From Undaria pinnatifida (Eukaryota > Sar > Phaeophyceae > Laminariales > Alariaceae): 64,000 nucleotides of DNA. Positions 15,695 to 63,445 of this stretch are shown here, piece after piece. The translations under genes and the position numbers were made by a program. Each line of letters starts with the position of its first letter. The stretch's first letter is position 1. Below the pieces are notes generated by a model. It worked only from the letters and a program-made list of their open reading frames with translations. It made no database searches and was not told the origin of the DNA. Location: the NCBI GenBank assembly GCA_012845835.1, contig JABAKD010000029.1, positions 9,288,231-9,352,230 on the forward strand. The letters run 5' to 3'.

Positions 15695-55501
<39,807 letters not shown>

Positions 55502-59582: not shown

Positions 59583-59660
59583 TGGGAATGGTGTATGACT
59601 AAAGACTCTAGTCTATGGACTATACAACTACTACTAACACTGCTGCGGTTGTTACAGCAG

Positions 59661-60036
59661 TGTTAAGGCATTAGTGGGGTATTAGTCCGTTTGACCACTT
59701 GCAACTGGTTAGCCAATAGCTTACCCAAACTAAGCCTTATAACACTCTTCCCCCCTGAAACGGCGGGATAGCAGGTCGGCCGGATATACGGCGGGCCTCT
59801 GTCAATATCCTAGCCGTTTCATTCCCTGGGGATACCAGGGAGAGTATTTTTCAAGTTCGACATGGGAAAAATCTGAAAAGTTTATGATTGTGGATGGTGG
59901 GGATCGAACCCACGACCCGAAAACCCAATGGTCTGTCGACGACGCCGTTGGTTAAGGAAATTAGTAGGGTATTAGTCCGTTTGACCACTTGCAAAAGGTT
60001 GACCAATCTAGCCTACCCACTCGAAGCCTTATAACA
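59661..60036 (-). mobile_element. TRIM with tRNA-like interior, copy 1
   Basis: 376 bp, minus orientation. Terminal direct repeats at 59,661-59,744 and 59,949-60,036 begin TGTTATAAGGCTT. The outer end reads CCTTAACA, giving TG...CA termini, and GCAG flanks both sides as a 4-bp target duplication. The interior carries a tRNA-like T-arm (GTGGGTTCGATCCCCAC) and ends in a purine tract GGGGGGAAGAG immediately before the 3' repeat. It encodes no protein. This is the layout of a terminal-repeat retrotransposon in miniature; the tRNA-like insert is unusual. Confidence 0.85.
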
Positions 60037-60734
60037 GCAGTCAGTGTAATAAGGTGTCGTACGCCCAACTCGCACAGGATCGATATATTTATATTTGCTC
60101 GTTTGCTTTTTCTGTGGGTTACCGACCGTCACAAATATAGATCTGGGGAAAAGTCGGCCGCATGTGACACTGCTGTGTGTGTCGTATTATATGTCTCGGT
60201 TGGTTGTTGACTGGTGGTCGATGGTCGATGCGGACGACATAGAGAACCGAAATGGACAAAGCGGTCCACCAATCAGATATCAGGCGCGCAAGAATTTGTC
60301 CGCTTTATCACCAAACTGTCTGTGATTGCGGTGCACTGTGTGTGGTAGAAGAAAAGTGGATCAAAAGACACCCTCCCATAGCCGCGAGAAGGGGGGCGCG
60401 GAACATCGGAACTGCCAGCTGCCAGCTGGCAGAGGTCAACCGCACCGAACCACTGAAGAACCGCACACAACATACAACCCTGTACCAATAACCCTTTTCA
60501 GCACACACGAACACCGCCACCATTGTAAACTATTTCGAGTTTTGGTCGATCGGGGGCGCCGGAAGACGTACCATGTCATATTATGAACGAACCCTGCAGG
60601 TAAAGCATTTTTATATTTTGTTCGCATCCACCTCCGCCCCCCCCCCTCCCCAATCACCACCACACACACCCTTTCCCCGCCCCACCAAAAAGTTACCCCC
60701 CACACACACAACCACCCCCCCCCCCACCCCCTCC
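60037..60734. other. No gene recognised
   Basis: No supported feature apart from C-rich DNA from 60,630. Confidence 0.4.
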
Positions 60735-61645
60735 CTCGCCGCCCCACCTAAAATCAAAATATGCTCGAGTAATAAACACCACCCGACAGGTTATATCGCC
60801 TCTCTTTAACTTTCGAGCCATCCACCATGCGGTAGATCCAATTCATTTGTTGTATAATATATGGTCTTCAACGTAAAATTAACGTCGTCCCCGTCCCCCC
60901 CCCTCCTCCCGCCACCATCGCCTAGACCTACTGTATGTAGTAGCACCACACGTGTAAAGTAAGCTCCTACTTGGTACACATTTATGTGACCTAAAATTGT
61001 TGGGAAAATCCCCCTCCCCTCTTCCTTTTCAACCCCTCCCCCCCGCCTAAAAATTCCGCCCTCCCTCAGCCGGTTATACGAGTTACTACATACAGGATTA
61101 CTATAATACAAAATAATGTATAGTTTCCAGGCACATATTGAGCTGCCCCCCCCGCCCCAACCCCCCCCCCCGCCCCCAATAATATACTGGTGCCAAAACC
61201 GTCAGATTTATCCCCTCGAAAGGATTTATAGCTTACATGCACAAATTGCCCCTCCCCCCCCCCCCCCCCCCCCCCTCCAAACCCGCTCGCTTTTGATCAA
61301 AACCAGGCCCCCACGTCCTTCAAAACTCCGCCCCACCCCCCTCACCGGTTATTCGACTTACAAGATTCACTTGATAAAAAGATACATTTCCCTTCACAGC
61401 TGTCAGATTTTGTCCCCCTCAGAAACGGGTTTTATATTTTCCGCGCACAGACTGACTAAAATCATCCTGTTGACCCTGATAGCTACACTGTAGTTGTAAG
61501 GGGAGTCGCCGACCTATATCCTTAATGAGGACACACAACTCGTAATGCGCGCGATCGGAGTATCACACACAGCTTGCAAAGATGAGTTTCGACGAAATCT
61601 TCGATCTCACAGCTGGAGTGTATTTTCATTTTTTATAATATACTC
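60735..61645 (+). repeat. Family A repeat, body plus T module
   Basis: CACCTAAAATCAAAATATGC and later body modules with C-runs, then the T module at 61,385-61,645. Confidence 0.85.
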
Positions 61646-62910: not shown

Positions 62911-63029
62911 ATGATGTTTGCTCGTTTTCAAACACGATTCCGCGTTCCGACTTCTTTCGACGTGTACGTAATTTCGTTTCACCTCCGCTCTCGACACCTT
63001 CGATCGACATAGTATATACGCCCTCCCCT

Positions 63030-63445
63030 CACCGGTCATGTTATACGACTATATGGTACAGGGCATACTAAGTACCTGGTACTTATGTAGTTGCAAGGGG
63101 AGTCGCCGACCTATATCCTTGATGAGGACACAGAACCCGTAATACGCGCGATCGGAGTATCACACACAGCTTGCACTGATGAGTTTCGACAAAATATTCG
63201 ATCTCACAGCTGGAGTGTATTTTGATTTTCATAATAATGAAGTGGCGCATTCCACAGCCGTCAGATTTTGTCCCCCTCGCAAAAACGTGTTTTCCTATAG
63301 TTTCCGTTCACAGATTGATTAGCACCCCCCCGTTGACCCTCGTAAAAGTTAGCTATGAGAGGAGTCGCCGACCTATGTCCCTGATGAGGGCACACACTCA
63401 CACTCAGCGAGCCATCTATGCGGTAGCTCCAACTCATTGATATGT
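63030..63445 (+). repeat. Family A repeat, two T modules in a row
   Basis: One at 63,085-63,240 and a second, diverged, at 63,241-63,400 that joins a body fragment (GAGCCATCTATGCGGTAGCT). Confidence 0.75.

Follow-up and report, generated by a model that had tools for sequence, protein, structure and literature searches.

Helenus elements, as set out in the consulted parts of Kojima 2024 (PMC10886601), are TRIMs with a tRNA-like sequence in the LTR, their hosts being fungi, animals and Selaginella, and the 4-bp duplications of the animal members are linked there to gypsy partners. The tandemly arrayed TRIMs of plants, according to the portion of the account used here (PMC4717578), have a short LTR pair, a primer-binding site (PBS) and polypurine tract, a target duplication, tandem arrays and no expected coding capacity, all of which recur in the element described below, the PBS as a candidate, while differing from it in that it resides in a brown alga and bears a tRNA T-arm-like sequence adjoining the PBS. 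TRIM LTRs are given as 100-250 bp in the part of PMC6934838 drawn upon, as compared to the shorter 84-86 bp here. Ectocarpus TRIMs and LARDs (PMC3145265, consulted in part) are also non-autonomous LTR elements of a brown alga and are likened to the present element by description only; the part of a paper on Ectocarpus transposons that was consulted (PMC12477816) does not mention tRNA, and among the literature titles none concerned TRIMs in Undaria.

The window, that is, the whole stretch of DNA analysed, comprises 64,000 nucleotides of the Undaria pinnatifida genome (contig JABAKD010000029.1, positions 9,288,231 to 9,352,230, forward strand), and contains at 59661-60036 on its minus strand a 376-bp element consisting of an LTR (86 bp), an interior (approximately 206 bp) and a second LTR (84 bp). 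An earlier note, made from the sequence alone, had described direct repeats of about 85 bp with TG/CA ends, a purine tract in the right place and flanking GCAG, and each of these was found: in element sense the 5′ LTR occupies 59951-60036 on the minus strand (TGTTATAAGG...CCTTAAC), the 3′ LTR 59661-59744 (TGTTATAAGG...CCTTAACA), and the target-site duplication GCAG flanks the element at 59657-59660 and 60037-60040. The sense strand of the element is the minus strand of the window, on which the polypurine tract CAGGGGGGAAGAG (59757-59745) abuts the 3′ LTR at 59744. A PBS-like stretch reading CGGCGTCGTCGACAGA in this copy is located at 59932-59947 (minus), followed by a tRNA T-arm-like hairpin, GTGGGTTCGATCCCCAC (59913-59897, minus), which has the same sense as the purine tract, is composed of a 5-bp stem and a 7-nt loop, and includes the B-box consensus at 59900-59910. 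Stop-to-stop frames lying wholly inside 59661-60036 do not exceed 53 codons in sense and 70 codons on the other strand. The copy is old, as its two LTRs are identical at only 73 of the 83 bases aligned, with 4 additional gaps. It was also observed that a portion of the interior's latter half (window 59740-59821) matches the interior profile in reverse complement (E 0.0015), and that a long stem is predicted for the corresponding region of the reference copy, L002.

A second, diverged copy, which the earlier note had placed at 41,270, is indeed organised alike and extends over 41270-41608 on the plus strand, with LTRs at 41270-41353 and 41525-41608 and the B-box consensus GGTTCAAATCC at 41393-41403 (plus); its interior is shorter than that of the copy at 59661, and its flanks, read from the sequence, are GTAA and GTAG, alike at three of four positions. 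The B-box consensus occurs four times in the window as compared to 0.73 occurrences expected, two of the four being those of the two TRIM copies. Elsewhere in the window, 52500-52625 (minus) holds a SINE-like sequence with A-box-like and B-box-like stretches (the latter GGTTCGAGCCC at 52563-52553), and a dispersed repeat of approximately 100-220 bp is present at 27131-27359, 47128-47363, 51636-51865, 61409-61641 and 63010-63238 and, in inverted orientation, near 43061-43304 and 48151-48311 (families D5, D6, D8 and D10 together with inverted pairs). A 197-nt inverted pair, 99% complementary and 27 kb apart (25532-25728 and 52824-53020), likely represents recent copies of an element, and an open frame at 27669-28277 (minus) matches the RCC1 repeat.

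A genome-wide search, as suggested in the earlier note, was conducted with the copy at 59661 against 511,146,479 bases and returned at least 61 matches, the best 40 of 4,047 candidates being scored. Loci were fetched through this search (8) or chosen from its table with a leaning towards arrays (20), and therefore represent a biased set of best-scoring copies, to which the flanks of 30 tRNA loci contributed a few more. Chaining gave 45 matches, of which 25 were complete (18 singles and 7 tandem arrays), the other 20 being broken, partial or otherwise arranged and kept outside the duplication count. Within this biased set, exact 4-bp duplications were present at 17 of the 18 complete singles and 5 of the 7 complete arrays, the exceptions being the single copy L049 and the arrays L009 and L013. 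Element length across L001-L008 is 372-376 bp, and the arrays follow the order LTR-interior-LTR-interior-LTR. Paired LTRs with TG...CA ends, a polypurine tract directly before the 3′ LTR, a length below 1000 bp and the lack of coding capacity, coupled with the fixed 4-bp duplications, establish the family as real and, by these features, as a TRIM of Undaria pinnatifida, as the earlier note had held; paired repeats and the tRNA-like part, whose absence that note considered fatal to its proposal, are both present in the similarity-picked sample. The LTR pairs of L002, L005 and L006 are identical at 84 of 84 bases and point to recent activity. A numerous and apparently recently active TRIM family is hereby recorded for a kelp. 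TRIM copies or fragments lie side by side in opposite orientations at L003, L009, L011 and L015. A targeting of tRNA genes was considered, individual copies (L031, L047-L049) being situated near such genes, but was set aside.

The element is not a whole tRNA, as ARAGORN identified no tRNA gene anywhere in the window, Rfam at the gathering score yielded no match in the window, and the tRNA covariance model, which the earlier note had proposed as a check, was absent among the three Rfam matches listed for 59640-60060 with E up to 10 (one overlapping match of the same clan being omitted by the tool). The sub-threshold tmRNA matches in this interval reflect the T-arm, and the interior profile matches real tRNA-Lys genes weakly (E of approximately 0.002). 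An alignment to tRNA-Lys(TTT) spanning the D-loop to the T-arm was rejected: its score was reached by 0 of 300 full shuffles for both pieces tried, but it failed when only the upstream part was shuffled. The tRNA reference set comprised 22 distinct sequences from 30 loci, with Ser and Leu types missing. When approximately 35 nt upstream were shuffled and the T-arm was kept, the tRNA score was reached in 13, 155, 50, 274, 203, 300 and 300 of 300 shuffles for seven copies, as compared to 0, 0, 0, 10, 0, 33 and 4 of 300 with everything shuffled, the value of 33 belonging to the second window copy. As upstream-only shuffling reaches the score, tRNA support beyond the variable loop and T-arm was dropped, and the tRNA-like passenger of the earlier note was an overstatement; what stands is a single arm. 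An antisense tRNA was likewise discarded, its scores being at shuffle level (51/300 and 62/300). The likeness to tRNA is genuine but confined to a small part, some 21-25 nt of variable loop and T-arm/B box, which is positioned in the interior beside the PBS, outside the LTR.

Such an arm is held by 9 of 20,000 dinucleotide-shuffled versions of the element at 59661. The sense T-arm announced by the earlier note was recovered across a set of 45 interiors, picked by similarity and not unbiased (44 near-complete ones from the loci, including that at 59661, plus that at 41270), in which the B-box consensus is found without exception and all five stem pairs, counting G-T, in 44; the variants GGTTCGAATCC, GGTTCAAATCC and GGTTCAAGTCC all keep the fit to the consensus. 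Over 44 complete interiors chosen for similarity, the variable loop and T-arm differ from L002 at 1.6% of sites, as compared to 7.0% for interior positions 19-33, 10.6% for 55-75, 4.5% for 76-140 and 2.4% for the PBS. Positions 161-190 differ at 1.1% in the same interiors and are equally conserved, and the T-arm is therefore not singled out by conservation. In predicted folding, four of the five T-arm pairs have pair probabilities of 0.83-0.95 in two of three stretches, while in the third, which joins the LTR end to the start of the interior, the predicted probability is only 0.11-0.15.

The earlier note had described a sense T-arm region in the interior instead of only a PBS; the T-arm is present, and so is a PBS candidate, TGGCGTCGTCG, which starts 2 nt after the 5′ LTR in 39 of 46 copies, while 6 of the 46 continue as GGCAGG. 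The junction in L002 reads TTAACA-AA-TGGCGTCGTCG, and both window copies have CGG for TGG at the start of the PBS. The complement would correspond to a tRNA ending CCTGC-CGACGAC-G-CCA, an end typical of tRNA-Ser and consistent with its T-stem and acceptor, that of human tRNA-Ser fitting 16 of 17 positions in five copies. Judged from the sequence, the stretch is probably the complement of a tRNA-Ser 3′ end, with tRNA-Ser as primer. The 30 tRNA loci fetched from the host genome included no tRNA-Ser gene, and none of the 22 distinct tRNA sequences, Ser and Leu being missing from them, pairs with the PBS beyond 5 consecutive bases from its start. The 13-nt CCTGCCGACGACG was encountered in 8 of 58 loci, and none of these sites is a tRNA gene, as all eight occupy the PBS place next to a TRIM LTR.

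The anatomy and the duplications argue for retrotransposition through LTR-type machinery, and movement presumably takes place in trans by means of another element's enzymes. We consider it reasonably probable, although well short of assured, that a TRIM copied in trans and primed by tRNA-Ser, with a T-arm hairpin near the PBS acting in RNA, jointly explains these features. RNA of the TRIM would be reverse-transcribed by enzymes of another LTR retrotransposon, with a tRNA, probably tRNA-Ser, priming at TGGCGTCGTCG and the purine tract priming the second strand, whereupon an integrase would produce the 4-bp target duplication. The tandem arrays may have originated by recombination between LTRs or by insertion of multi-unit DNA. 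The T-arm-like hairpin, which may descend from a tRNA, would most likely work at the RNA level, as a structure of fixed shape close to the site of priming.

It is possible, if on balance doubtful, that the T-arm has no function and is carried along passively in an ordinary TRIM, either as what is left of an inserted tRNA or SINE or as a match due to chance. This would agree with the upstream-only shuffles, which left only one arm tRNA-like in the seven copies, and with the equal conservation of positions 161-190, but the rarity of a full T-arm among shuffled elements and the continued fit of the variant copies to the B-box consensus speak against it. An RNA hairpin next to the PBS and a relic without function, two readings that these data separate poorly, both agree better with the evidence than does a Pol III promoter. 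The latter would employ the T-arm as B box of an internal, TRIMp3-like promoter, as proposed for Helenus, its A box lying within the PBS or close to it, and is supported by the B-box consensus in all 45 interiors. The A-box consensus is TRGCNNAGYNGG, which TGGCGTCGTCGG of a rarer subfamily, approximately 37 bases before the B box, fits at 11 of 12 positions and the common form at 10 of 12, both assessed by eye. Against such a promoter, runs of four or more T occur in 45 of 45 interiors, and in 44 of these such a run falls among the opening 39 bases, ahead of the B box; a run of at least five T is found somewhere in 41 of 45, and runs of this kind should stop Pol III. In addition, the LTR of L002 lacks a B box and bears no clear likeness to a tRNA, its tRNA score being reached by 16 of 300 shuffles in sense and 124 of 300 in antisense with the 22 tRNAs, lacking Ser and Leu, as reference. 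We regard a Pol III promoter as unlikely owing to these T-runs, and hold out still less hope for the specific arrangement in which the PBS doubles as A box and the T-arm as B box, providing an interior Pol III promoter instead of one in the LTR; were it true, one 50-nt stretch would set both the RNA start and the start of reverse transcription. That a SINE or other non-LTR element in tandem was taken for a TRIM is extremely improbable, for although the element is short, tRNA-like, repeated and arrayed in tandem, the fixed 4-bp duplications strongly disfavour this, and TG/CA ends and a purine tract beside the 3′ repeat are likewise at odds with it.

In comparison with known systems, the Undaria element shares with Helenus, as far as described in the consulted parts of PMC10886601, the TRIM structure, a box-B sequence, 4-bp duplications (animal Helenus) and tandem arrays (LTR-11_DR), whereas the tRNA-like part of Helenus lies in the LTR and that of the Undaria element in the interior, as one arm with no clear box A. 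With regard to the Helenus-type boxes (A: TRGCY ... YGG; B: GGTTC), box B is in the interior and box A has only a loose fit, by eye, in the PBS. As its tRNA-like sequence is outside the LTR, the defining location, the Undaria element is not Helenus. Cassandra (PMC10886601, in the part consulted) is also a TRIM with a piece derived from a small RNA, in its case 5S rRNA in the LTR, and this feature is absent here, Rfam having given no 5S rRNA match in the window or at 59640-60060; nor was there a hammerhead ribozyme match in either, so that the retrozyme feature is absent as well. The biv-TRIM of bivalves, in the sections of PMC6934838 relied upon, shows in two species a resemblance to tRNA-Tyr immediately past the 5′ repeat, has interior hairpins and arrays, and is in these respects like the present element; that resemblance, however, concerns the middle of tRNA-Tyr, with no PBS nameable, whereas in the Undaria element a PBS candidate starting with TGG comes first. 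The "different type" proposed by the earlier note calls for caution, Helenus and biv-TRIM (PMC10886601 and PMC6934838, as far as consulted) having gone before. A T-arm adjoining the PBS is a TRIM variant worth recording, of modest interest pending its role, and a tRNA-like sequence beside the PBS rather than in the LTR bears on whether such pieces serve transcription or priming.
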